Below are positions 64 through 20,627 of a stretch of DNA of 22,846 nt, one piece after another. Made by a program: the position numbers and the translations under genes. The notes under the pieces are model-generated. The model ran no database searches and was not told the origin of the DNA. It saw only the letters and a program-made list of their open reading frames with translations. The stretch lies in NCBI GenBank assembly GCA_013306675.1, contig JABLUY010000385.1, positions 1-22,846 of the forward strand. Direction: 5' to 3'. The DNA comes from Thraustochytrium sp. TN22. Lineage: Eukaryota > Sar > Bigyra > Thraustochytrida > Thraustochytriidae. The stretch's first letter is position 1; each line of letters begins with the position of its first letter.

Positions 64-218
64 TCCCCTCTCTCCCGTCGTCCCTTTCTCTCGCTCGCGC
101 GCGCGCTCTCTCGCTCTCGCGTCGTCGCCGCCCTCGCTACAGGAGCTGCAGCGCGCGTACGCGTACTTTAGCGGGTGCGGCTGCGAATTGACTTGTGGCT
201 GCAAACTGGCAAGCAAGC
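64..218 (+). promoter_or_regulatory. Polypyrimidine 5' leader of the calpain gene
   Basis: The CT-rich tract ends in CTCGCTACAG at about 133-142, which resembles a 3' splice site (pyrimidine tract plus CAG). A 5'-UTR exon further upstream could therefore be spliced here. Alternatively the tract is a pyrimidine-rich core promoter. A stop codon (TGA, 189-191) in frame with the calpain start excludes upstream coding extension in this reading frame without splicing. No TATA box was seen. Confidence 0.35.
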
Positions 219-3200
219 ATGCCCGTGCAGACGACGGGCGTTCTCGCGCGTCCGCGCATGGACATCTGGGCCGTGCGCGACGCGACGGGCGTGGCGGCAG
301 CCGCCGTGACGACGGTGGTGCTTTACGCACTGCTGGTGTTCGTCTTGAGCAAGGTCAAGTTCCGAACGTGGCTGCTGCCGGCGGCCGTGGCGAGGAGACG
401 CAAGTGGCTCGTGCCCTGGGCACGCAACGGTGGCAGCTTGCGCGCATTCTACTACGGCGTCACCGCCTGGACCTGGGCCGTGTACGCGCTGGCGGCCGCC
501 GTTGCTGCCGGCGCCGTGCTGACGTTCTACTACGCAGCCTCCGACAGCAAGTGGGGCAACTTCCGGCAAAAGCCCGTTGCTCTCGCCGCGCTGTGCGGCT
601 ATTGGATGGTCGTCATCTTTGCCGCGCTGATGTGGAAGCAGAACCAGTGGAGCCTGTCCGCGCAGCTGCGTGTCATGGCGTGGGTGCCTGGGTCGCTCGA
701 CCTCATGGATCTACAGGTGGCCGACCCGTGGACTCCGCATCGCGAGATCGAGGCGCGCTTGCGGTCCTCGCTCGGTGCGCTCTTGGCGCTCGCGCTCGTG
801 TTCATCACCGTCATGCACCTCTTCCTCATCCCCTTTGGCGAGTGCGAGGGTGAAGACATCCCGTGGCAGTACTCCTGGTGTAACAAGACGCTCACCACGC
901 ACACGCGCGCCGCGCACGACAACTACGTGGACGACGCGGCCTGGCACGTCGGCGCCAACTGGATCTTCATCATGTTCAACGCCTTCTTCGTCATCTTGAC
1001 CGCCTACCTGCTCGACCTCTACCTGCACGTGGGCGTTGACCTGGTCGTGGAGGTCCAGACGCGCGTCGCACAGAGCCTCATGCGCTACGGCGTCGGCGCG
1101 CACCTGCAGGTGGCCATAGCGTCCGATCCGCGCGTTGGCGCGGACGCCGGCGCTCGCCCGGGCGACAACTCGCCCGCGCCTTCGGCGCGCGATCGCATCG
1201 ACGCGCTCCTCAACCTCGACACTGACGGCAGCGCCGCCACCGCCGCCCCGGCGCCGGAGGCGCTCCCGTCGCTCGGCAACGACGGCGGGAAAGCAGGCGA
1301 CCAAGGGCCCAGCCGCGTGCCGCTCTCCAGCCCGGACGGCGACGAGCTCCTCAACAAGGAGCTTGGCCGCGCCTACACCGTACTCAAGACCTTTGTCTGG
1401 CAAAACATGGCGGACCTGCCCGGCCTGCGCAAGCACAAGGTGCACGCCCACACGTCGCAAGTCGCGACGCCCAAGTCGCGGCACGAGGGCGGCAACGACC
1501 TCGAGGAGGACGCCCACCACCACGATTCCGCCGAGGACGACGCCAGCAGCGAGCGGACGCCGCTGCATAAGGCCGCGCCGCCCTCGTACATGGCTGAACT
1601 CGCCACGCGGTACCAGCGCGTGCTGCGCGCCGGCATTCTGGTCACCTACGGCGCGTCGCTCACAGTCCTTTTAATGCACGCCGTGCTCATGCTCGTGCTG
1701 ACGCAGCGCACCGTGGCCTTTTTTCAGGCCGTTGGCATTTTGCTCACCGACAGCATCATGCTGCTCAAGTACTTTGAGACGGCGCGCACCCACGGTCCAC
1801 GCGCGCGCGACTCGCGCGCGCTCAAATTCGTGCGCATTAGCCGCGCACAACCCTGGCACGTGGCGCTCATGCTGCTGGCGGCGCGCACCGTGCTCATCAG
1901 CGTGCCGAGCAACTCGTGGTTCCTTGGCCAGGCCTGCCTCTACGTGCTGGCCGGCATCTACCTCAGCCGTGGCATCCTCGCCGACTACCTGTCGCCGCGC
2001 TCGCTGGGCGCCGCGGACCGCCGCCTCGCGCGCCGCGCGCTGGCGCGCGTGCGCAGCGCGCGCTCGCTCTTCCGTGCGGTGTGGCTCACGCTCGTCGTCT
2101 TCATGCGCGAGATTCTTCTCTTGCTCTTTATCGCCTACTTTGTCGTGCTCACCATGATGCTGCGCTCGCCGACCATGGACAACACACTGCGTCTCGGCGT
2201 GCAGGAGAATGCTGGAGGCTACGTGACCGTCTGGATTCTCGACGACGCCATCCCGCAGTGGAAGATCGGCGCCCTTGCGCACCTCATTGTGGCCAACTGC
2301 GTCGTCGGCTTCATCGCTTGGAACGTCTTCGTGCGCGAGCAGGGCAAGCGCCCGCTCCACCTGCTGAGCAGTGTGCGCGTGGCCGGGCGCGTCGTGCTCG
2401 CATTCGGGTTGGTCATGCTGCTTTCCATCTACAGCGCGCACTTCGTCTCGTACAGCATGTTCCACAAGACAAAGAAGTTTTCCATCGTCGGCACCGTCGG
2501 CACCATGCTGCCGGCGATCTTCATCGGCCTCTACGTGCACGAGCTTTGGGTGCGCGACGACTTTCGCTTTTGGCGCCCCCTGCCGCGCTCCGTCATCCTC
2601 CCCATCAACCCGGACCCGGAGGATGAGCGCTACGCCAAACTCTGCCGATTCGCCTGCAAAGTGCGCTCTGCGCGCCGGCTCATTTGGCGCCGCAACCTTG
2701 CCATGGTGTGCGGCGCTGCTCTCGTCGTTCTCTGCTTCTTTCTCTGGGGCTGGTCGCTCGCGTACGAGGTCGAAGACCTCGACGTCGAGTTTGCCGTGCT
2801 CTTCCCCACGGCCACCTTCGCACTGCTCTGCGGCCTGCTCGGCGCCCAGCTCTGGTACAATACGCTGCAGGTCTCCCGTGGCCTCATCGTGCTCTTTGCG
2901 CTGCTCGTCGCCTCGCTGCTCGTCGCCTACGTTGTCGGCCTCGAAGAGGTGCTCACGGCCCAGGGCACGCGCTACAACGACTTCCTCGACGTCGTCGGCT
3001 TTTGCCTGCTGCTCGTCCCCGTCACCATCTCCGGCGTCGGCGCCATGCACGTCTTCCGCGACGAGCATTTTCGGCCCAACACCTTCGTGGTGGCCGCCGC
3101 CGTGGTCAGTCTCTCCGCGCTCATTGGCCTCGGCATCTGGTTCATCGTGCGCTTCTCCGCCTTTGCAGGTGTCGTCTACTACTTGCTGCTCGTGCTCCTC

Positions 3201-6200
3201 GTCATCGTCGCGAGCATCTGGCTGTGGTGGCACTCCTCGCGCCTCGACGACGAGTCGCGCTTCCGTCCCACGCGCCGCCTGCTCTGGCTCGCCGTGGCCA
3301 TCGCTGCGCTCTTCGTGGCGCTCGGCATCTGGGACCTCTGCACAGCGGACTCCATCCTCATCGGCGACCTCGGCGACCCGCTCTACGGCATGACGTACTT
3401 CCTCGTGGCCTACCTGCTGGGCGTGGTCGTCGCCGTTCTGTACATTATGAGCCTGGGCCGCGAGCTCGCGCGCAACTCGACGCGCCTTTCGCCGGCACCC
3501 GCGCCCTTTGGCATCCCGTCCATCGCCTTCAAGGTCGAGAACCGCGGCGGCGAGCTGCACCGCAACAACACGCTCGTCAAGTGGGTCTCCGCGACCCTCG
3601 TCTCTCTGCAGCTGCTCGGCATGGGCATTGCCTGGTCCGTGCAGCCTAATGCGGGCGTGTCCATCACTTCGGTCGCCAACTGCCTGCTGGAGATCTACGC
3701 GTTGCACATGGCTGTGGCGCGTTTGAGCCAGTTCCGCGACAACATCCTCAGCATTGAGAATCTCTCGGAAATGGACACGGTCTTCCAGCGCATCCTGCGC
3801 GAGTCTGTCGAGCGCTGTCTGCAAATCTCGCAGCAGGCCATGATGGCGTCTTGGCTCAAGACCTCGCGCCCGCACCTGGATGAGGAGGAAGAGGAAGAGG
3901 AGAAGGAGGCCGCCGCCGCCGCTGCCGCCGCCGCTGCCGCATCTGGCGACCGCTTTGCGGCTGACCGCGCGCCCGTCCGTCTCCCGGCCTCCTTCTCGGA
4001 CGTCTCTGGCCTGCACCGGAGCGCCGCCGCTGCGCAGGCGGCGCAGGTTCGTGGCGACGTGGACGCCCTCGACCTCAACCTGCGCCCTGGCAGCCGTCTT
4101 GGCAGCAGCGTCAGCAGCCGCGCGCTCGCGCTGGGGACGTCTCGCCGTCGGCTCTCCTCGCGCGGGGCGCGGTCTGCGCCAGAGCTCGTCGTGCCGCCCA
4201 AGGCTGGGATCGCGCTTCGAGCGCTGAGCAGGCCAAATGGGATGTCCCCTGGCGCCACTTGCAACAACACCGCGGAGGCCGCGGAAGACGACACGACCGA
4301 GGGCGGCTCGACTGTCGAGGACGACGACGACGACGATGAGGTTGTGATGGTCAACACCGTCCGCGGCCTCGTCGCCTACTACGAGAAGATGCTCGCGGAG
4401 GACGCCGACCATGTGCGGTATCTGCGCGAGGGCCACAAGTACGATGCCCTCTTCAACGTTCTCCTGTGGATGCGCACGACGCAGGTGATTTTGGAGCAGA
4501 AGGCGGCTGAGAAACGCGGTCTTTGGATGTCGGGCGCCGGCAAGGACGACAGCGGAACGGAGCTCTCGAGCCCGAGCGACGATGGCGACGAGGACGGGCC
4601 GGGCCGGTCCATTTCGCTCGCGTCCGGGTCTGCGGAACACGTCTTTCTCGAGGAGTCGCGGCGCATCGTTCTCCAGCACGCCGAGGCACTCGGCGACGAC
4701 TCCCACCTCATGCCCGAGCGCATGGACACGCTCGGGAACGCCTCTCTGGCGCGTGCGCCTGGGCCAGTCCCGTTCGCTGCGGGCGGGCCGACGCCCACGC
4801 CGTCGCTGCGGGATCTTGCCGTCGACGGCGCGGACAACGATTTTCGCCTTGGCACAGAGCGCGACGCGCAGTACGCGCTCGCGCTGGTGGACGGCGGCGC
4901 GCGCGAGCTGGCGCCGCCTCCGCCCCCGGACGTGGACGGGCCGCGGCGCATGCCATCGCGCAAGGCGTCGTCGCGGACGCTCAAGTTCCTGCAGGGTGCG
5001 CGCGGCAGCATTCGCGCCGCGTCGAAGCGGCTCACGACGAGCGCTGACGTCGCCGCGGAGGCGCGCAACCGCGGTCGCCAGTCGCTGGCGCACGCCGTCA
5101 GCCAGCGCAAGAGCCTGCTGGCCAATCGGCAGGCGAGCCAGGAGGCGCTGTTGACGCCGCAGCTGTCGCGACGAAAGAGCAGTGGCCTGCACATGGTGAA
5201 CCACGCATGGAAGCACCTCCCTGGCGACCGCGCGCTGAGCGAGCTGCAGGCCATCATTGACGACGTCCAGCGCCAGGGGGCGCGGTGGTGCGATGAGGAG
5301 TTTCCAGCGACGAATGCCAGCCTCTTTTTGGACTGGGAGGATGAGGACTACGAGGACCTGGTGGAGGACATGGACGAGGACGACCTGCGCGGCGCGCTCT
5401 GGTGCCGGCCCGACGAGTTTTTCCCGGCGGAGGCGGGCGCTGCGCTGGGTCGCGAGCTCTGCGTCAAGCCTGCGCTCGACTCGTACGACCCGACCGAGGT
5501 GCTGCAGGGTGGCACGGGCGATTGCTGGCTGCTCAGTGCCATGTCTGTCGTGGCGCTCTTCCCTAAGCTGCTGGATGAGGTGGTGATCACCAAGCAGGTG
5601 GCGCAGGTGGGCGTCTATCACGTGTGCCTCTTCCTCGACGGCAAATGGGAGCACATTCTGGTCGACGACCGCTTCCCATGCTCGCTCGAGCAGAGCCTCG
5701 AGTACGACCCGAGCGACGAGCTGCGCGTGCTGCGTCTCTGTGACCAGCCGCCCGACCTCTTGGCGCACACGAACCCGGCCATGGACGGCCTTGGCGACGG
5801 CGGCAGCAACCCCGCCATGGATACCGAGGGCCGCGTGCGGCGGCTGCCGCTTCCGCAGTACTGCCGGTCACGCAGCGGCAACGTGCTGTGGCCCATGCTG
5901 ATTGAAAAGGCGTACGCAAAGCGCTTCGGCTCGTACGAGGCGCTGAGCGGCGGCCACGTGCACTCGGCGCTCGTGGACCTTACGGGCGGGCTCTCACAGG
6001 TGTTCTCGCTTCGCGACGACGTAGAGGTGGTCATGTCCGGCGCCCTCTGGGACAAACTGCTGGAGTTCTACCACCGCGGGGCCCTGCTGGCGGCCGGGTC
6101 GCCGGCGCCGCAGCAAGACGGCACGGGCGGCTTCGAAGACGGCCAGCTCGCCACGGACCGCAACGGCATCGTGCACGGCCACGCGTACTCCATCGTGAGC

Positions 6201-7181
6201 GTGGTGGATGAGTCCGACTACAACGGACACCACCGCCTCTTGCAGCTGCGCGACCCATGGGGCATCTCACGCTGGAACGGGCCGTGGTCGCGCAAGGACC
6301 GCAAGCGCTGGACGCGCCGCATGCAGCGGCGCCTGGGCTTCGAGGTGGACGCCGCCTCGCGCGTGGACGGGCTGCGCGAGATCCTCGCGCACATGGACGC
6401 TGCCAGCAGCGGGAGCGGCGGTGACGACGACTCCGAGGACCCGCTCGGCTCGCTGCCCAGCGGGATCGAGTCTGACACCTCGCGCCTCTTGGGCGGCCGC
6501 GACGACGGTTCCTTTTGGATCTCGCTCGAGGACTTCATCGCCCGCTTTCAGTGGCTCTACGTGTGCCAGCTGTTCAAGAAGGATGAGTGGGTGCACAGGT
6601 CCATTAGCGACGAGTGGATGGGCATCACGGCCGGCGGCCCGCCCAATCAACCCGGCGCGCTGTACAACCCGCAGTTCGGCTTCCGCATCAGCGCGCCCGC
6701 GCGCAAGCGCGCGCGGCGCGCGCCGTGCGGCGCTGCGCACGACGACTTCGTCACAGTCTTCTTCTCCATCGCCAACCTCCAGGAGTCTCACGCGGAACGC
6801 TACCAGGCGAGTGCGCAGGAGGACGCCATGCACCGTGCCATGGAGGAGGGCGCAGGCGTGGACCCCTTTGGCCAGTACGAGGCGGCGGCGCGCGAGAGTG
6901 GTCGCATCTACCCTTTCATGTCGCTGCTGCTGCTGGACCTCGACGGCAAGCGGCTCGAAGAGGAGCTCTTGGCCAAGCACGTCGTGGCGTCCACGGGCAA
7001 ATACAAGGACTCGCGCGATCTCTCTTTTGAGACCAAGCTGCCGTGCGACCCGAACATCACCTACACTATCTTCCCCTCGCTCTTCCCGCGCGGAAAGGAG
7101 GGCGCTTTCCGCATCAACATCTACTGCGAGACGGGCTTCGAGCTCTTTCCGCTTCCGCTCCCCAGCGACGCGCAAGTCTGA
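219..7181 (+). CDS. Transmembrane calpain (DEK1/TML-calpain-like cysteine protease)
   Basis: This 2,320-residue intronless protein begins at the first ATG after an in-frame stop at 189. Residues ~25-1170 hold about 23 hydrophobic segments, interrupted by a hydrophilic loop at ~280-460. A low-complexity cytosolic linker follows, with poly-Glu and poly-Ala near 1220-1240 and an Asp run near 1370. The calpain protease core spans ~1690-2115, with GGTGDCWLLSA (Cys1769) and GHAYSIVSV (His1988). The third catalytic position, Asn in the classical LRNPWG motif, reads LRDPWG (Asp2012). A calpain domain III-like beta-sandwich ends the protein (NPQFGFRI, then YTIFPSLFPRGKEGAF). The order of multipass membrane region, linker, CysPc and domain III is that of plant DEK1 and protist TML-calpains, which are about the same length. 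In plants DEK1 is a membrane-anchored protease controlling cell-layer fate; its role in a unicell is unknown. The family is clear. Activity is uncertain because of the Asp. Confidence 0.95.
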   Translation: MPVQTTGVLARPRMDIWAVRDATGVAAAAVTTVVLYALLVFVLSKVKFRTWLLPAAVARRRKWLVPWARNGGSLRAFYYGVTAWTWAVYALAAAVAAGAVLTFYYAASDSKWGNFRQKPVALAALCGYWMVVIFAALMWKQNQWSLSAQLRVMAWVPGSLDLMDLQVADPWTPHREIEARLRSSLGALLALALVFITVMHLFLIPFGECEGEDIPWQYSWCNKTLTTHTRAAHDNYVDDAAWHVGANWIFIMFNAFFVILTAYLLDLYLHVGVDLVVEVQTRVAQSLMRYGVGAHLQVAIASDPRVGADAGARPGDNSPAPSARDRIDALLNLDTDGSAATAAPAPEALPSLGNDGGKAGDQGPSRVPLSSPDGDELLNKELGRAYTVLKTFVWQNMADLPGLRKHKVHAHTSQVATPKSRHEGGNDLEEDAHHHDSAEDDASSERTPLHKAAPPSYMAELATRYQRVLRAGILVTYGASLTVLLMHAVLMLVLTQRTVAFFQAVGILLTDSIMLLKYFETARTHGPRARDSRALKFVRISRAQPWHVALMLLAARTVLISVPSNSWFLGQACLYVLAGIYLSRGILADYLSPRSLGAADRRLARRALARVRSARSLFRAVWLTLVVFMREILLLLFIAYFVVLTMMLRSPTMDNTLRLGVQENAGGYVTVWILDDAIPQWKIGALAHLIVANCVVGFIAWNVFVREQGKRPLHLLSSVRVAGRVVLAFGLVMLLSIYSAHFVSYSMFHKTKKFSIVGTVGTMLPAIFIGLYVHELWVRDDFRFWRPLPRSVILPINPDPEDERYAKLCRFACKVRSARRLIWRRNLAMVCGAALVVLCFFLWGWSLAYEVEDLDVEFAVLFPTATFALLCGLLGAQLWYNTLQVSRGLIVLFALLVASLLVAYVVGLEEVLTAQGTRYNDFLDVVGFCLLLVPVTISGVGAMHVFRDEHFRPNTFVVAAAVVSLSALIGLGIWFIVRFSAFAGVVYYLLLVLLVIVASIWLWWHSSRLDDESRFRPTRRLLWLAVAIAALFVALGIWDLCTADSILIGDLGDPLYGMTYFLVAYLLGVVVAVLYIMSLGRELARNSTRLSPAPAPFGIPSIAFKVENRGGELHRNNTLVKWVSATLVSLQLLGMGIAWSVQPNAGVSITSVANCLLEIYALHMAVARLSQFRDNILSIENLSEMDTVFQRILRESVERCLQISQQAMMASWLKTSRPHLDEEEEEEEKEAAAAAAAAAAASGDRFAADRAPVRLPASFSDVSGLHRSAAAAQAAQVRGDVDALDLNLRPGSRLGSSVSSRALALGTSRRRLSSRGARSAPELVVPPKAGIALRALSRPNGMSPGATCNNTAEAAEDDTTEGGSTVEDDDDDDEVVMVNTVRGLVAYYEKMLAEDADHVRYLREGHKYDALFNVLLWMRTTQVILEQKAAEKRGLWMSGAGKDDSGTELSSPSDDGDEDGPGRSISLASGSAEHVFLEESRRIVLQHAEALGDDSHLMPERMDTLGNASLARAPGPVPFAAGGPTPTPSLRDLAVDGADNDFRLGTERDAQYALALVDGGARELAPPPPPDVDGPRRMPSRKASSRTLKFLQGARGSIRAASKRLTTSADVAAEARNRGRQSLAHAVSQRKSLLANRQASQEALLTPQLSRRKSSGLHMVNHAWKHLPGDRALSELQAIIDDVQRQGARWCDEEFPATNASLFLDWEDEDYEDLVEDMDEDDLRGALWCRPDEFFPAEAGAALGRELCVKPALDSYDPTEVLQGGTGDCWLLSAMSVVALFPKLLDEVVITKQVAQVGVYHVCLFLDGKWEHILVDDRFPCSLEQSLEYDPSDELRVLRLCDQPPDLLAHTNPAMDGLGDGGSNPAMDTEGRVRRLPLPQYCRSRSGNVLWPMLIEKAYAKRFGSYEALSGGHVHSALVDLTGGLSQVFSLRDDVEVVMSGALWDKLLEFYHRGALLAAGSPAPQQDGTGGFEDGQLATDRNGIVHGHAYSIVSVVDESDYNGHHRLLQLRDPWGISRWNGPWSRKDRKRWTRRMQRRLGFEVDAASRVDGLREILAHMDAASSGSGGDDDSEDPLGSLPSGIESDTSRLLGGRDDGSFWISLEDFIARFQWLYVCQLFKKDEWVHRSISDEWMGITAGGPPNQPGALYNPQFGFRISAPARKRARRAPCGAAHDDFVTVFFSIANLQESHAERYQASAQEDAMHRAMEEGAGVDPFGQYEAAARESGRIYPFMSLLLLDLDGKRLEEELLAKHVVASTGKYKDSRDLSFETKLPCDPNITYTIFPSLFPRGKEGAFRINIYCETGFELFPLPLPSDAQV

Positions 7182-11352: not shown

Positions 11353-11697
11353 TTAGTTCTTGTAGACGAGCTTCTCGTCGGAGGGCTTGATGCCGAGGAT
11401 CTCGCGGTTGTTGGCGTTGAAGAAGGTCTTCCACGGGCCCTTGCTCGGCTTCATGTCCATGTGCGCGATCTTCCAGATGCCGAACATGCAGCCGGCGCTG
11501 ACGGCGGCGACGAGCGGCCAAACCTCGGGCTTGGAGAAGAAGAGCATCTTCTCGCGGACCTCGAGCGGGGTGGTGACGCGGAAGCGTGCGTGGCCGCCCT
11601 CGGACTGGCCGAGCGGGAACTTGACCTTGACGGTGTCGGAGAGCATGCGCTTGCCGCCCATGCGGCGAGCCGCCATGCGAGCGCCGTTCTGCATCAT
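11353..11697 (-). CDS. NDUFA4/MLRQ (B12D)-like mitochondrial protein, copy 1
   Basis: This 114-residue protein has an Arg-rich, amphipathic N-terminus (MMQNGARMAARRMGGKRMLS) typical of a mitochondrial presequence. A single membrane segment lies at ~59-80 (VWPLVAAVSAGCMFGIWK). A conserved polar tail follows (PSKGPWKTFFNANN, then IKPSDEKLVYKN). The pattern of PEV-x-PL, helix, W, N, P-x-D and a C-terminal Tyr resembles the B12D/MLRQ family, which includes the respiratory-chain subunit NDUFA4. I infer a small inner-membrane subunit of complex I or IV. It is identical in protein to copy 2 and lies head-to-head with it, 772 bp apart. The family call is moderate; the reality of the gene is well supported by four conserved copies. 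Confidence 0.85.
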   Translation of the reverse strand: MMQNGARMAARRMGGKRMLSDTVKVKFPLGQSEGGHARFRVTTPLEVREKMLFFSKPEVWPLVAAVSAGCMFGIWKIAHMDMKPSKGPWKTFFNANNREILGIKPSDEKLVYKN

Positions 11698-12469: not shown

Positions 12470-12814
12470 ATGATGCAGAACGGCGCTCGCATGGCGGCTC
12501 GCCGCATGGGCGGCAAGCGCATGCTCTCCGACACGGTCAAGGTCAAGTTCCCGCTCGGCCAGTCCGAGGGCGGCCACGCACGCTTCCGCGTCACCACCCC
12601 GCTCGAGGTCCGCGAGAAGATGCTCTTCTTCTCCAAGCCCGAGGTCTGGCCGCTCGTCGCCGCCGTCAGCGCCGGCTGCATGTTCGGCATCTGGAAGATC
12701 GCGCACATGGACATGAAGCCGAGCAAGGGCCCGTGGAAGACCTTCTTCAACGCCAACAACCGCGAGATCCTCGGCATCAAGCCCTCCGACGAGAAGCTCG
12801 TCTACAAGAACTAA
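12470..12814 (+). CDS. NDUFA4/MLRQ (B12D)-like mitochondrial protein, copy 2
   Basis: This 114-residue protein is identical to copy 1. Only two nucleotides differ in the 345-bp frame, both synonymous (in the Thr codon near residue 22 and the Val codon near residue 59). It has the same Arg-rich presequence, single membrane helix (~59-80) and conserved tail. The start is the first of two adjacent ATGs, shared by all four copies and preceded by a conserved GCAAG. It is divergently transcribed from copy 1 and shares the central GC-rich spacer. The extra copy may raise the dosage of an abundant respiratory subunit (inference). Confidence 0.85.
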   Translation: MMQNGARMAARRMGGKRMLSDTVKVKFPLGQSEGGHARFRVTTPLEVREKMLFFSKPEVWPLVAAVSAGCMFGIWKIAHMDMKPSKGPWKTFFNANNREILGIKPSDEKLVYKN

Positions 12815-13636: not shown

Positions 13637-13984
13637 TTAGTCCTTGTAGACGAGCTTCTCGTCAGAGGGCTTGATGCCAAGAACCTCACGGTTGTTGGCA
13701 CCGAAGAAGGTCTTCCACGGGCCCTTGCTCGGCTTCATGTCCATGTGCGCCATCTTCCAGATGCCGACGGAGCAGCCGAAGGTGACGGCGGCGACGAGCG
13801 GCCAGACCTCAGGCTTGGAGAAGAACATCATCTTCTCGCGGATCATGAGCGGCTGGTTCACATGGAACTTGGCGTGGCCGCCGTCCGACTGGCCGGCCGG
13901 GAACTTGAGCTTGCTGGCCTCCGAGGAGAACAGCCGCTTCGCGCCCATGCGGCGGGCCGCCATGCGAGCGCTGTTCTGCATCAT
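13637..13984 (-). CDS. NDUFA4/MLRQ (B12D)-like mitochondrial protein, copy 3
   Basis: This 115-residue paralogue begins MMQNSARMAARRMGAKRLFS, again a basic presequence. It has a membrane helix at ~60-81 (WPLVAAVTFGCSVGIWKM) and the same tail PSKGPWKTFFGANN and IKPSDEKLVYKD. The open frame continues upstream of this Met, but the paired-ATG start with GCAAG just before it is shared with the other copies, so I use it. Compared with copy 1, substitutions concentrate in residues 18-55, and the last ~38 residues differ at only three positions. That pattern fits a functional C-terminal half under strong constraint. The 17-bp upstream motif of copies 1 and 2 is present. Confidence 0.84.
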   Translation of the reverse strand: MMQNSARMAARRMGAKRLFSSEASKLKFPAGQSDGGHAKFHVNQPLMIREKMMFFSKPEVWPLVAAVTFGCSVGIWKMAHMDMKPSKGPWKTFFGANNREVLGIKPSDEKLVYKD

Positions 13985-14883
13985 CTTGCTGGTTGGTTTG
14001 TCGGCTGGTGGCTGCTGTTCTGCTTGGCTCTTGCTCTTGCTTTGGCTCGAGGAGTTGCGGGTCTGCTCTCGCCGCGCCGTCGCCCGGCCTCGGTCGCCTT
14101 CTCGTCTGGCCGACCCACGTAAGCCGGCGCAGCAGCCTGTCGGAGCTACTACTACTAGTAAGCCGAGGCGTGCAGCGCGGCGCGGCGGCCGGGACTGGCC
14201 CTCGGAAGCGGCCAGGATACGTCCGGGGACAAGCCTGGGACGAGCGAATCCCGCGCTCGCCATCGGACTCCGCGCGTGCTGCTCGCGGCTGTCCGGCGCG
14301 GCGCGGCTGGCTGTCCGGCGGGACGCTTCTTGCCCTCTTCCCGCTCGGCGGGCGCGCGCCCGGGTGCGATTGGCGGCCACTTCGTCCCGCACCCGTGCTG
14401 CGGGGCGACAGCACTGCGCTGCACTCCGCCGCCTCCAAGTCAGGCTGAGGCTGGCCGACGACGATGCGGAGGACTCGAACGGCAGCGCCGTGCATCACCT
14501 GGCAGGGTCAAGGCGAGGCGCGCATGCTGGTACGTAGGCTGGCTTGCTTGCGCAGACGGTGGAGCGCGGCGGCGGAACGCGGAACGCGGGTTCTGCGCAG
14601 ACTCGTCCCGACTTGGCAGCGTTCGGCTCGTCTTTCCAAAAAGACTCGGACTCCGAGCAGATTATCAAGTATGTCTTCCATCGGCAGCTCCCATGATCGG
14701 TCACGGCCAGCTCGTCATGGGACCTGCCGGCGTCAACGGCAGACGCACCCAGAGGAGGCCCTGGGCTTTCTCAAGCCCTCTCGCAATTCTACAAGCCCGC
14801 TCTGCCGTGATCCGCCTTTCACGTCCGTCACTGGCACTGCACGTCAGCATCTCTTCATTCAATAGGTCCGGCAGCAGCTCGAA
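13985..14883. other. Upstream region of copy 3 and intergenic sequence
   Basis: From 13985 to about 14450 the sequence is GC-rich promoter-like DNA with a TACTACTACTAG run at 14147-14158. From about 14600 the GC content falls. Open frames crossing it have no ATG near their start and Arg/Ala/Pro-rich shadow-like translation. I see no RNA gene or recognised protein. Confidence 0.5.
14051..14067 (-). promoter_or_regulatory. Conserved promoter/5'-leader motif, copy 3
   Basis: The plus strand reads GGAGTTGCGGGTCTGCT, identical over 17 bp to the copy-1 block. It sits 67 bp upstream of the copy-3 start codon. Flanking sequence on the far side does not align with the copy 1/2 spacer, so conservation is local. 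Copy 4 lacks an obvious match. Confidence 0.55.
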
Positions 14884-15535: not shown

Positions 15536-15880
15536 TTAGTCCTTGTAGACGAGCTTCTCGTCGGAGGGCTTGATGCCGAGGACCTCGCGGTTGTTGGCGT
15601 TGAAGAAGGTCTTCCACGGGCCCTTGCTCGGCTTCATGTCCATGTGCGCGATCTTCCAGATGCCGAACATGCAGCCGGCGGAGACGGCGGCGATGAGCGG
15701 CCAGACCTCAGGCTTGACGAAGCGCTCCTTGAGCGCCTTGTGCGGCTGGTACACGGCGAAGATGGAGTGGCCGCCCTCGGACTGGCCGGCGTGCGGGAAC
15801 TTGAGATCCTTGGCCGACTGGGACAGCATGCGGTTGCCGCCCACGCGCCGCGCCACCATGCGAGCCCCGTTCTGCATCAT
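15536..15880 (-). CDS. NDUFA4/MLRQ (B12D)-like mitochondrial protein, copy 4
   Basis: This 114-residue paralogue starts MMQNGARMVARRVGGNRMLS and has the helix WPLIAAVSAGCMFGIWKI and the tail PSKGPWKTFFNANN and IKPSDEKLVYKD. It is the most diverged between presequence and helix (~20-57): HAGQSEGGHSIFAVYQPHKA replaces the other copies' segment, and the FFSKPEV of the others becomes FVKPEV. From residue ~58 onward it is almost identical to copies 1 and 2. The paired ATG start preceded by GCAAGA is conserved. The upstream GGRGTTGCGGGTCTGC motif is missing, so it may be differently regulated. The mitochondrial role is inferred from the family resemblance. Confidence 0.84.
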   Translation of the reverse strand: MMQNGARMVARRVGGNRMLSQSAKDLKFPHAGQSEGGHSIFAVYQPHKALKERFVKPEVWPLIAAVSAGCMFGIWKIAHMDMKPSKGPWKTFFNANNREVLGIKPSDEKLVYKD

Positions 15881-17075: not shown

Positions 17076-20000
17076 TCAGCAGAGGGCATCGAGGTCGAGG
17101 TCGGCGCCGGGAAGGGCGGCGAGGTCGCCGGCCAGGTGGATGATGGCGCGAGGGTTGCCTGCACAGGCGGCGACCACGGGGTGCTGTGCGACCTCTTGAA
17201 GCGTGGCCTCGCGGTGGCCGAGGAGAATCTTGCGCTTGAGGTGGCGCACGAAGAGCAGCGCGGCGTCGCCGGCGTGCATGCGCGGGAGCTCGTAGTTGAC
17301 GACGTTGACGTTGAGCGTGTGGCCGAGATGCAGAGGCTCCGCGGTGGTGAGGAGGATGCGGACGCCGGCGGCGCGGTCGAGCACAGCGTGCAGCACCGAC
17401 ATGGCGAGCGGGGTCTCGCGGAAGTCGTCGAGCACGAGCAGGCAGCGCGCCTTGCGCTGCGCGAGCGCGCGCGCCAGCACATCGGCCTTGGCCATGGCGC
17501 GGCGGCGCAGGTCGCTGAGCGCGAGGCGGCGGCTGCGCTTGCGGCGCAGGAGCGCCACCTCGTCGGCGCGGAAGGCGGCCGCAGCGCCCGAGGCAGAGTC
17601 GGTGCTGTCCTGCTCGTCGTCGGACTCGCAGTCGTCCAGCAGCGGCTGGGTGGTCTCGATGGTGGCGGCCGAGACGGCGCGGCGATCCGCGTAGTGCGGC
17701 GCGTCGAGCGCGGCAGCGTCGCTGTCCTCAAAGAAGTCGAGGTCGCCGTCGCCGGCGAAGGAGGTGGCCGGCATGGCGCTGAAGCTGCGCGGCGCCGCGG
17801 CGGGCGCCTCGGCCGTGCCGGCGGGCGCCGCGATGAGCGGGTAGACGGCCTCCCAGATAGCGTCCACAAGGCGCGCGGCGCCGTGGACGGCGGCGTGCGT
17901 CTCGGCGTCGCTGGCGTTGGCGCCCGCGGTGGCCACGGCGCTGAGGCTGCCGGAGCGCGCGAGGCGGCCGCCCTGCTGCCGCTGGTGCTGGTGCTCAGCG
18001 TCGTGGTGGTGCATCTCGTGGTGGTGGTCCTTGATGACAAAGACGCCGTCGCGCATGACGGCGGCGCAGCGGCGCTGGTGCAGGTGGTGCGCAACAGCCA
18101 GCACGACCTGCGTGCGGCCGGCGCCGGCCTCCTCGGCGTGCAGCGCCACGAGGCGGCGATGCTCCTGCATGAGAGCGCGCAGCAAGGTCCACATGGCGGC
18201 GTGGCGGCCGAGGAAGTCCTCGCAGACCGGCGGCAGCGCCAGCATGCGGTCGCTGCTGGGCCAGGCGCGCGAGGGCGGCCGCGGCACGAGCGCCGCGCCG
18301 GTGGCGGGCGCGTCGCGCCAGATGACCTCGCGGTGCGCGTCGCCCTCGGGCAGCAGCACGAAGGCGTCGAGCTCGTCCTCGTCCAGCGAGGGCGAGCTCT
18401 GCACGGCCTCGCGCGCCGAGTCGAAGGCGTCGCGCACCGTGCGGCCGCAGGCGAGCGCCAGGTAAAAGGCGCCCGTGAAGATGGCGGCCACCTGGTCGCG
18501 CACGCGCTTGCGGTACGCGATGACGTGCGCCACGCCGGCCAGAGCGAACTCGCGCGCCGCCGCCTCCGAGTTGCAGGCGTTGAGCACCACGAGCCGCAGC
18601 GTGCCGAGCGACCGCTGCGTCAGCGTCGACCGCAGCAGCCCGCGCAGCATCTCCATGCTCACGGCGTGCAGCTGGCCGGCCGAGTCCTCGAAGGCGACGA
18701 ACTTCTTCGTGCAGTGCCCGCTAAAGTGCAGGACGCGCGCGCGGTTCAGCGTCATGATGGTGTGGAAGGACTCCACCGTGGCGCACGAGACCGTCACGGG
18801 CACCTCGGCGCCGGCGGCGCGCCGCGACGCGCGCGCCGCATTGTGCAGGCTGCGCCGCAGCAGGCCGTACTCGCGGCGGATGTCCAGGCCCTGGATCGGC
18901 CTCACCTGCGCGGTCGCGGCGCCCGCGGACGGGCCTTGGCCCTGGCGGCCTGCCGCCGCCGCCGCCCCTGCCGTTGGCTCCTCATGCGAAGTCATGACGA
19001 GCGGCGAGGCGAACAAGAGGTGCACGACGCCCTCCTCCGCGGCCGGGTTGCACATGGACGAGGACGCCGAGGACGCCGAGGACGATCGCTCTCCCTCCAG
19101 CATCGGCAGCAGGCTGTCGCCGACGTCCATCTCGTGCAGAAAGGGGACACCGTCCGAGGTCGCGCGCATCGGCATGAGCGAGGGCAGCGCCGCGTGCGGC
19201 TGCGTCTGCTGCGCCTGCATCTGCTGCTCCAGCAGGGCGGCGAGCTGGCCCGCATCCGGGGCGCCGTCCAGCGGCAACTCGTCCAGGTCCTCGCCCTCGG
19301 CCTCGGCCTCGCACTCGTTCGCAAGGCGCCCGGACACCGACGCGGGCGGCGACGGTGCTGGTGGCGCGCCCAGTGGGCCACCGGCGGGCCGCTTCTTGTG
19401 AAGCTGCGAGGCGGCGGCACCACCCGCGCTGCCCGTCGAGATGCTCCGGCGCGCAGCCGCCGCCTTGCGCGAGGTCGGCGAGAGGTCGACGGCTGGCATG
19501 AGGTCCCCGCTGCCGCTGCCGCTGCTGCTGCTGGCGTCTTCGTCCGCGTCCTCCAGGGCCACGTACGGGTTCCGGCGGCGGTAAAACAGCGTCAGGAGCA
19601 CGAAGCCCACCACCATGAAGGCGGCCTGGAAGGCGGGCTGCGCCAGGCGGCGCAGCATGGACTCCTCGCAAAAGGGGCCGGCGAAGCCAAAGGCGCACTC
19701 GCAGTCGCCGTCGACGCAGTCGCCGCGGCCCGAGCAGACCTCGCCTCCGTGGCCCGCCATGCAGGCGACGGCGGCCGGGTTCTTGACCTCGGCGCCAAAG
19801 ACCTGAAGGTCGTGCACCTTGAGCTGGCCGAAGCTGAGGCGCTGCACGCGCACGAAGGCGCATGGGCTGTGCACGTGCATGCTGAAGTTGGCCGAGTCCT
19901 GCAGGACGACCTTCTTCCAGCTGAACGGCAGCTGCGAGACGTCGGCCACCGGGTCGGCGGTGGTCGAGTCCGTGCACCAGACGAGCAGCTTGTTGTCCGG

Positions 20001-20627
20001 CGCCGAGTTGTCCACGTTGACGCCAAAGGAGATGTGGTCCACGTAGTACAGGCCCTCGAGGTCAACGATCACGTACGGCGAGTCCTCACTGGCCGTCGCG
20101 ATGAGCTGTTGCTCCTCGGTGAGCCTGCAAAAGGTGCCAGCCGCCGAGGCCGAGGACGACTGCAGGCACGTCTTGTTGAGCGCCACGTTGGGCAGGAAGT
20201 CGGCCGGGTCGTCGCGGCCGTCCTCGGTCTCGAAGGCAGGCCGCGCGCGCGCGAAGCTCGAGCCCAGTGGCGTTGGCGACAGCGACACCGAGTGCAGCTG
20301 GCGCCAGCGCGCCGCCTCCTCCTCGCTGGCCGCCCTGTACGGGGTGCCGACCTGGGGCGACGCCGCCGGCGTGCCCACGAAGCCCGGGTAGCCCCACGCG
20401 AGCTGTCGCTCGCGGTCCTCGTCCTCGACGTCCTGCATGAATTCACGCTCCAGCTCCTCGCTGCGCGTGGGCCGCGGCGCCGCGGCGCCCGCCTGCTGCG
20501 CGCCGACCTGCTCCAGCAGGCGCGGCGACATGGCGGGTGTCAAGGCGCCCTCGGCCAGGCACATGCACATGGTGCACGTCACATTCGCCATGAGCGCCGC
20601 CGCATACAGCACGCGCGCCCTGGTCAT
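17076..20627 (-). CDS. Putative single-pass receptor: discoidin-like/EGF ectodomain with intracellular CHAT protease and NB-ARC/STAND-like module
   Basis: This 1,183-residue intronless protein starts at the only ATG before the first domain (20627, context AAAATGACC). A signal peptide covers ~1-28 (MTRARVLYAAALMANVTC). A galactose-binding (F5/8 type C)-like beta-domain spans ~145-281 (NVALNKTC, PYVIVDLEGLYYVDHISFG, LQVFGAEV). An EGF-like domain has six Cys at 289, 298, 304, 309, 311 and 320. A membrane helix lies at ~333-349, followed by YRRR. After a low-complexity linker comes a CHAT domain (~531-763) with the dyad motifs LHFSGH (His638) and VVLNACNS (Cys685). An NB-ARC/STAND-like module runs from ~803: DFLGRH, degenerate P-loop AGAGRT, a His-rich insert (867-887), Walker B CLLVLDDF (Asp1067, Asp1068), VRILLTT, and CAGNPRAI. 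No TPR, WD40 or LRR follows. By family analogy I infer a surface sensor that activates an internal protease, in defence or cell death. The ligand and substrate are unknown. Confidence 0.88.
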   Translation of the reverse strand: MTRARVLYAAALMANVTCTMCMCLAEGALTPAMSPRLLEQVGAQQAGAAAPRPTRSEELEREFMQDVEDEDRERQLAWGYPGFVGTPAASPQVGTPYRAASEEEAARWRQLHSVSLSPTPLGSSFARARPAFETEDGRDDPADFLPNVALNKTCLQSSSASAAGTFCRLTEEQQLIATASEDSPYVIVDLEGLYYVDHISFGVNVDNSAPDNKLLVWCTDSTTADPVADVSQLPFSWKKVVLQDSANFSMHVHSPCAFVRVQRLSFGQLKVHDLQVFGAEVKNPAAVACMAGHGGEVCSGRGDCVDGDCECAFGFAGPFCEESMLRRLAQPAFQAAFMVVGFVLLTLFYRRRNPYVALEDADEDASSSSGSGSGDLMPAVDLSPTSRKAAAARRSISTGSAGGAAASQLHKKRPAGGPLGAPPAPSPPASVSGRLANECEAEAEGEDLDELPLDGAPDAGQLAALLEQQMQAQQTQPHAALPSLMPMRATSDGVPFLHEMDVGDSLLPMLEGERSSSASSASSSMCNPAAEEGVVHLLFASPLVMTSHEEPTAGAAAAAGRQGQGPSAGAATAQVRPIQGLDIRREYGLLRRSLHNAARASRRAAGAEVPVTVSCATVESFHTIMTLNRARVLHFSGHCTKKFVAFEDSAGQLHAVSMEMLRGLLRSTLTQRSLGTLRLVVLNACNSEAAAREFALAGVAHVIAYRKRVRDQVAAIFTGAFYLALACGRTVRDAFDSAREAVQSSPSLDEDELDAFVLLPEGDAHREVIWRDAPATGAALVPRPPSRAWPSSDRMLALPPVCEDFLGRHAAMWTLLRALMQEHRRLVALHAEEAGAGRTQVVLAVAHHLHQRRCAAVMRDGVFVIKDHHHEMHHHDAEHQHQRQQGGRLARSGSLSAVATAGANASDAETHAAVHGAARLVDAIWEAVYPLIAAPAGTAEAPAAAPRSFSAMPATSFAGDGDLDFFEDSDAAALDAPHYADRRAVSAATIETTQPLLDDCESDDEQDSTDSASGAAAAFRADEVALLRRKRSRRLALSDLRRRAMAKADVLARALAQRKARCLLVLDDFRETPLAMSVLHAVLDRAAGVRILLTTAEPLHLGHTLNVNVVNYELPRMHAGDAALLFVRHLKRKILLGHREATLQEVAQHPVVAACAGNPRAIIHLAGDLAALPGADLDLDALC

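Follow-up and report, generated by a model that had tools for sequence, protein, structure and literature searches.

The window, positions 1 to 22,846 of contig JABLUY010000385.1, encodes on its reverse strand a protein of 1183 amino acids in which a signal-peptide-like N-terminus, a discoidin-like domain, an EGF-like domain, a single membrane helix, a linker of low complexity, a CHAT caspase-fold protease domain and a STAND/NB-ARC-like module follow one another (Table 1). The frame is stop-free and begins at 20627, the earliest ATG in the open frame. An earlier interpretation made from the letters alone (the sequence-only reading) had proposed that one reading frame joins all of these domains, and this was borne out by the 1183 uninterrupted codons and by their codon usage.

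Openness of the frame is by itself weak evidence for a gene, because the genome is GC-rich and the opposite strand carries an open frame of 1299 amino acids over the same region. Since open frames come cheaply in such a genome, codon usage served as the test. Overlapping 50-codon pieces were scored in all six frames against a codon table that pooled three paralogue frames with three further genes of the window. The gene frame scored best of the six in 44 of the 45 pieces spanning residues 20-1170, and did so again in 44 of 45 when the table was drawn from the three window genes alone; the sole miss in this range was the piece at residues 845-895, a His-rich stretch. Among the ten outer pieces, the gene frame came first once with the six-gene table (residues 1195-1245, past the stop, by 0.02 with both scores negative) and never with the three-gene table. 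Third-position GC was 0.82-1.00 across the 45 inner pieces, 0.70-0.78 in the four pieces entirely upstream of the start, 0.86 and 0.88 in the two that span the start, and 0.80, 0.74, 0.68 and 0.50 in the last four, which lie across or beyond the stop. As the coding signal runs unbroken through the frame, linker included, we read the whole stretch from ectodomain to STAND module as a single gene.

The Pfam CHAT model (PF12770) matched residues 591-763 with an E value of 2.3e-16 (60.5 bits; cut-off 24). His638 and Cys685, the presumed CHAT catalytic pair, occupy columns that are invariant in all three own-genome copies that were aligned, and in four of four when one copy from an IMG/VR contig is added. 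The proposed CHAT domain with these two residues was thus recovered. The sequence-only reading had also named the absence of any CHAT or NB-ARC profile match as the outcome that would count against it; both families matched above their Pfam cut-offs. A search of NCBIfam returned no match for the window protein, and PADLOC gave marginal values for it (E 0.041, BovA) and for the paralogue C153 (E 0.048), with no match for the paralogue C398.

The NB-ARC match covers residues 1045-1169 (E 3.6e-5) and lies just over its cut-off, at 23.6 bits against 23.5. A STAND profile built from three paralogues (C153, C398 and C310) matched the window protein from residue 795 to its end at 1183. The p value was 6.3e-11 and the score 28.2 bits, with a bias correction of 14.4 already deducted, against a best of 10.4 bits among 3000 shuffles; the best single stretch had p 2.3e-7. 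The Walker A motif is degenerate: EEAGAGRT departs from GxxxxGK[ST] by having Glu832 for the first Gly and Arg838 for the Lys, which makes a working ATP switch doubtful. The paralogues read GPSGVGKL, GAAGIGKT and GTPGSGKS at this position and a broken relative, L017, reads ETGGAGKT, so that among the five copies compared the Lys-to-Arg change occurs only in the window protein. The hhhhDD pattern is retained as LLVLDD at residues 1063-1068, within CLLVLDDF, presumably the Walker B motif. Of the STAND-like ATPase that had been proposed, the STAND-like relationship therefore stands, through the NB-ARC and paralogue-profile matches, whereas a working ATPase does not follow from a module that keeps Walker B and has replaced the Gly and Lys of Walker A. 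The chain ends 24 residues past the GNP motif, with no C-terminal repeat sensor of the NLR type. That the C-terminus stops soon after the STAND module, as had been remarked, is a feature shared with C153, which likewise stops about 60 residues beyond its own GNP motif.

Hydropathy exceeds 1.6 in two segments, a signal-like one at residues 6-24 and a second at 331-349 that is followed by RRR; the next highest value, 1.56 at residues 713-731, falls within CHAT. On hydropathy, these segments argue for a membrane protein with the signal peptide and membrane helix previously proposed. Between them lie ten Cys residues and, of the four N-glycosylation sequons, those at 151 and 247, which fits a location outside the cell; the remaining sequons are at residue 15, in the signal-like segment, and at 904, in the tail. 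The EGF_2 model matched with E 1.6e-4 for the whole protein (22.4 bits against a cut-off of 22.1) and 2e-5 for the piece alone, and the six Cys are at 289, 298, 304, 309, 311 and 320, in keeping with the EGF-like domain that had been called. The discoidin-like domain contains Cys 154, 167, 218 and 256 and sequons 151 and 247. Neither Pfam F5/8 type C model (PF00754, PF22633) matched the window protein, and the window was absent from the own-genome matches. A broader profile of 34 domain copies, from 30 loci (some from one protein) and four own-genome loci, gave the ectodomain 13.3 bits, a single-test p of 3.3e-6, and an hhalign probability of 82%; the ectodomain ranked first of 5002 sequences when run with its reverse (-1.2) and 5000 shuffles (best 6.0). 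Among 889 other control pieces, many of which overlap and are not independent, two from the same protein scored 13.9 bits (residues 171-331) and 6.4 bits (91-251), and all others 5.7 or less. The discoidin-like assignment of residues ~145-283 made in the sequence-only reading is accordingly supported but not proven, although the Pfam models are silent. Searches of PDB sequences with the ectodomain and with the CHAT-STAND part gave chance-level matches only (E 1.2 or worse), and no death-fold family was among the eight Pfam matches at E ≤10, a range in which the search filters drop most matches above 0.1.

Table 1 Features of the CHAT-STAND gene, in window coordinates.
Feature	Position	Strand	Basis
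Whole coding frame	17076..20627	(-)	1183 codons and TGA stop; start ATG 20627, stop 17076
Signal-peptide-like N-terminus, residues 1-27	20547..20627	(-)	Hydropathy 1.79 over residues 6-24
Discoidin (F5/8 type C)-like domain, residues ~145-283	19779..20195	(-)	Home-made profile, hhalign
EGF-like domain, residues 289-320, six Cys	19668..19763	(-)	Pfam EGF_2
Single transmembrane helix, residues 331-349; RRR C-terminal to it	19581..19637	(-)	Hydropathy 1.84, the protein maximum
Low-complexity cytosolic linker, residues 350-528	19044..19580	(-)	Sequence and codon scores
CHAT caspase-fold protease domain, residues ~529-770	18318..19043	(-)	Pfam E 2.3e-16 and paralogue alignments
His638 codon (HFSGHC)	18714..18716	(-)	
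Cys685 codon (NACNSE)	18573..18575	(-)	
STAND/NB-ARC-like module, residues ~800-1183, with long low-complexity insert	17079..18230	(-)	Pfam NB-ARC and paralogue profile
Degenerate Walker A EEAGAGRT, residues 832-839	18111..18134	(-)	
Walker B-like CLLVLDDF, residues 1062-1069	17421..17444	(-)	

The genome that holds the window has CHAT or CHAT-like loci on six contigs, at least six in all; a Pfam genome search gave four CHAT loci, only a protein search brought in C87 and C310, and the counts are lower bounds. C153 (G000:C153:16775-26317; L005, L006) is a frame of 3181 codons with a SPRY domain (E 1.2e-12) and LRR-like repeats (an LRR_1 match just below its cut-off), followed at its end by CHAT (1.4e-9) and STAND. 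C398 (G000:C398:326495-329251; L007) combines in one frame CHAT (5.3e-14), an AAA_16-type STAND module with an intact P-loop (8.8e-8) and a C-terminal SH2 domain (2.2e-6), an order that suggests a phosphotyrosine-linked CHAT protease. C310 (G000:C310:55941-58247; L025) has a CHAT-like part and then an AAA_16-type STAND module (5.9e-9), a STAT-linker-like part (STAT_linker 4.6e-4, below its cut-off) and SH2 (8.2e-6). The front part of C310 had no Pfam CHAT match and reached only E 0.005 against C153; a four-copy CHAT profile picked it up at 26.5 bits (p 2.6e-10), where 3000 shuffles reached at most 6.6. Thr stands in its catalytic His column, and at the catalytic Cys the alignment is out of register, a Cys following one column later; the protein is a possible pseudo-protease regulator. 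C87 has CHAT (4.5e-7) and no STAND match, and the motifs of C44, whose CHAT match scores 27.7 bits, read as those of a separase. C332 has NB-ARC and no CHAT match within the 1016 of 1351 frame residues that were scanned, and ordinary Peptidase_C14 matches also occur in the genome (C45, C429). SH2 matches were found at five loci, two of them CHAT-STAND genes. Elsewhere, a frame at G000:C28:43900-44421 has two tandem SH2 matches. From these domain orders, we regard the window protein as the surface-receptor branch of a CHAT-STAND family that swaps its sensors.

Taken together, the gene probably encodes a receptor-like type I membrane protein whose intracellular part holds a CHAT domain and a STAND-derived module. 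It would be the surface-sensing member of a small CHAT-STAND family and would be activated by clustering. The discoidin/EGF ectodomain would bind a glycan, lipid or surface ligand and the receptor would then cluster, bringing CHAT domains together for proximity activation of the cytosolic protease. The STAND module, for which ATP cycling on its own is unlikely, could act as a scaffold for oligomerization or docking, perhaps partnering paralogues that retain the P-loop Lys, and the activated protease would cut a local substrate in a defence, death or adhesion response. A narrower version, which we put forward only tentatively, is a single-chain death or immune receptor of the cell surface in which an outside ligand directly clusters and activates a caspase-fold protease without an adaptor, sensors are swapped across the family and the His-less copy is a possible regulator. 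In such a family the ectodomain would take in outside signals, the SPRY and LRR-like parts would respond to molecules inside the cell, and the SH2 domains, one with a STAT-type linker, would respond to phosphotyrosine.

Sequence relatives elsewhere were few. One scan of genome_contigs gave a single close relative, L017 (1164-2038), on a contig labelled as a Phycisphaerae metagenome-assembled genome and 73% identical to the window protein over residues 652-724; downstream of its P-loop no match was better than E 1.2. This contig may be misbinned eukaryotic DNA or contamination under a bacterial label, and L017 neither backs nor excludes the receptor order elsewhere. Three scans of viral_contigs returned one contig (L030/L032), from the IMG/VR viral collection, on which L030 (2431-3690) is a CHAT protein with ~30% identity to the window CHAT domain. 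No full-length orthologue of the window protein was found in the contig scans. The CHAT tree comprised 24 of the 30 bacterial loci (partial L077, L086, L087, L093, L094 and L096 were left out and partial L084 kept), with C87 represented by its C-terminal half only.

Several of these results weigh against a clustering-activated receptor within a sensor-swapping family. L017 is broken, with its His-bearing stretch missing, an internal duplication and a change of frame, and the 1.2 kb of upstream DNA available for it contains no ectodomain match. In the CHAT tree, C153 and C398 are the rows nearest to the window protein, and the branching among the three was not settled. None of 200 bootstrap trees (0%) grouped the five own-genome rows together, and the C87 half sits with L081, from a bacterial genome, and L030 on a branch with good support; a single origin of the own-genome CHAT copies is therefore not shown. 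The gasdermin model PF04598, which may miss distant gasdermins, had no match in the genome, and this removes one simple substrate. Nucleotide-driven switching is likewise doubtful for the window protein, judging from its Walker A residues.

The strongest alternative, which we nevertheless think rather unlikely, is a surface protein for adhesion or for sensing the environment, in which the CHAT-STAND tail does housekeeping work as a protease or scaffold (in the cell cycle, secretion or membrane remodelling) unrelated to defence or death. The separase-like C44 and the small number of CHAT loci found, itself a lower bound, would fit such a role, as would animal TTC28-type CHAT proteins, which are reported to act in the cell cycle or cytokinesis, but the CHAT-STAND core resembles NLR-type proteins, and the SPRY, LRR-like and SH2 parts of the paralogues fit inducible switches. 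A dead STAND module, with the window protein a decaying, loss-of-function copy, perhaps a decoy or one being lost, is improbable: the replaced Walker A residues, the loss of the CHAT His in C310 and the state of L017 point that way, but the frame is intact over its full length with strong codon bias, and it retains Walker B and both catalytic residues of CHAT. Two adjacent genes (ectodomain-transmembrane and CHAT-STAND) joined by chance in a GC-rich genome are very improbable and were rejected on the run of codon usage, for although long antisense frames indicate that stops are rare here and coding scores within the gene are lowest in the linker (residues 370-445, with 0.16 and 0.10), these scores still exceed those of the other frames, the gene frame leads in all seven linker pieces starting at residues 345-495, and linker third-position GC stays at 0.82 or above, falling only at the two gene ends.

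The neighbouring genes in the window encode a calpain, HAT1, an adaptor mu and MLRQ-like proteins. They back the earlier view that the protein is eukaryotic, and on the same genes a bacterial origin of the window was rejected; the host is likely a protist. The small MLRQ-like protein is present in four copies (11353-11697, 12470-12814, 13637-14392 and 15536-15880), of which three were scanned with Pfam, with a B12D match below cut-off; two copies encode an identical protein in opposite orientation. The calpain domain (E 1.7e-59) is C-terminal in a frame of 2328 amino acids at 195-7181 on the forward strand, and many hydrophobic segments, judged by eye only, lie ahead of it.

If the receptor reading is right, the window protein joins three elements that are kept apart elsewhere, namely reception of a ligand at the surface, an NLR-type module and a caspase-fold protease, and a single-celled eukaryote wires an outside signal to a protease within one protein. 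The paralogue family adds to the interest of the window protein: its members would show CHAT-STAND in use as a general output core to which different sensors can be fitted, and their SH2 parts would suggest phosphotyrosine control of that core. The origin of adaptor-based death-receptor pathways would also become testable in a small genome.

Fungal NLRs whose N-terminal effector is CHAT, some of them adjoining gasdermin genes (PMC10197012, PMC12881547, PMC9815663), resemble the window protein in placing CHAT and a STAND/NB-ARC-type NTPase in a single eukaryotic chain. The same literature finds a CHAT protease gene no more than 10 kb away for ~19% of fungal gasdermin genes and describes one TPR-CHAT/gasdermin pair demonstrated to work. 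As presented there, the fungal proteins are intracellular sensors with repeats, whereas the window protein probably has its sensor at the N-terminus, across the membrane, a degenerate Walker A and no PF04598 match in its genome. The sequence-only reading had named CHAT and STAND pairs from prokaryotic proteins; as the fungal NLRs also carry CHAT, the pairing extends to eukaryotes. Bacterial caspase-domain proteins with transmembrane helices and STAND fusions are in print as well. The bacterial EACC1-caspase system (PMC7159879), a membrane-associated two-gene system with transmembrane helices in at least 33% of its proteins, shares a caspase-fold domain, such helices and STAND among its C-terminal fusions; it differs in having the caspase domain N-terminal and a partner gene, and the available text does not mention a discoidin/EGF ectodomain. 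TPR-CHAT proteins (TTC28 type, corals) are also eukaryotic fusions of CHAT to a recognition module, but theirs consists of TPR repeats, and the accessible parts of the accounts mention neither STAND nor a membrane span (PMC9145168, PMC12314368).

A bacterial target protein combining CHAT and TIR is also in print. Among the matches listed in the open-licence literature, none was a CHAT-STAND protein with an extracellular domain, and the terms 'CHAT domain' and 'SH2' together gave no match there. The parts and the CHAT-STAND pairing are thus already known, and neither the receptor order nor the SH2 order appears to have been described in the literature searched. Against the NLR plan of effector, central NTPase and C-terminal repeat sensor, the window protein lacks the repeat sensor. 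Animal death receptors signal to caspases through separate proteins linked by death domains. The window protein resembles them in outline, from an outside ligand to a caspase-fold protease inside, but would do so in one chain, with CHAT in place of a caspase proper, no death domain matched and a STAND module attached.

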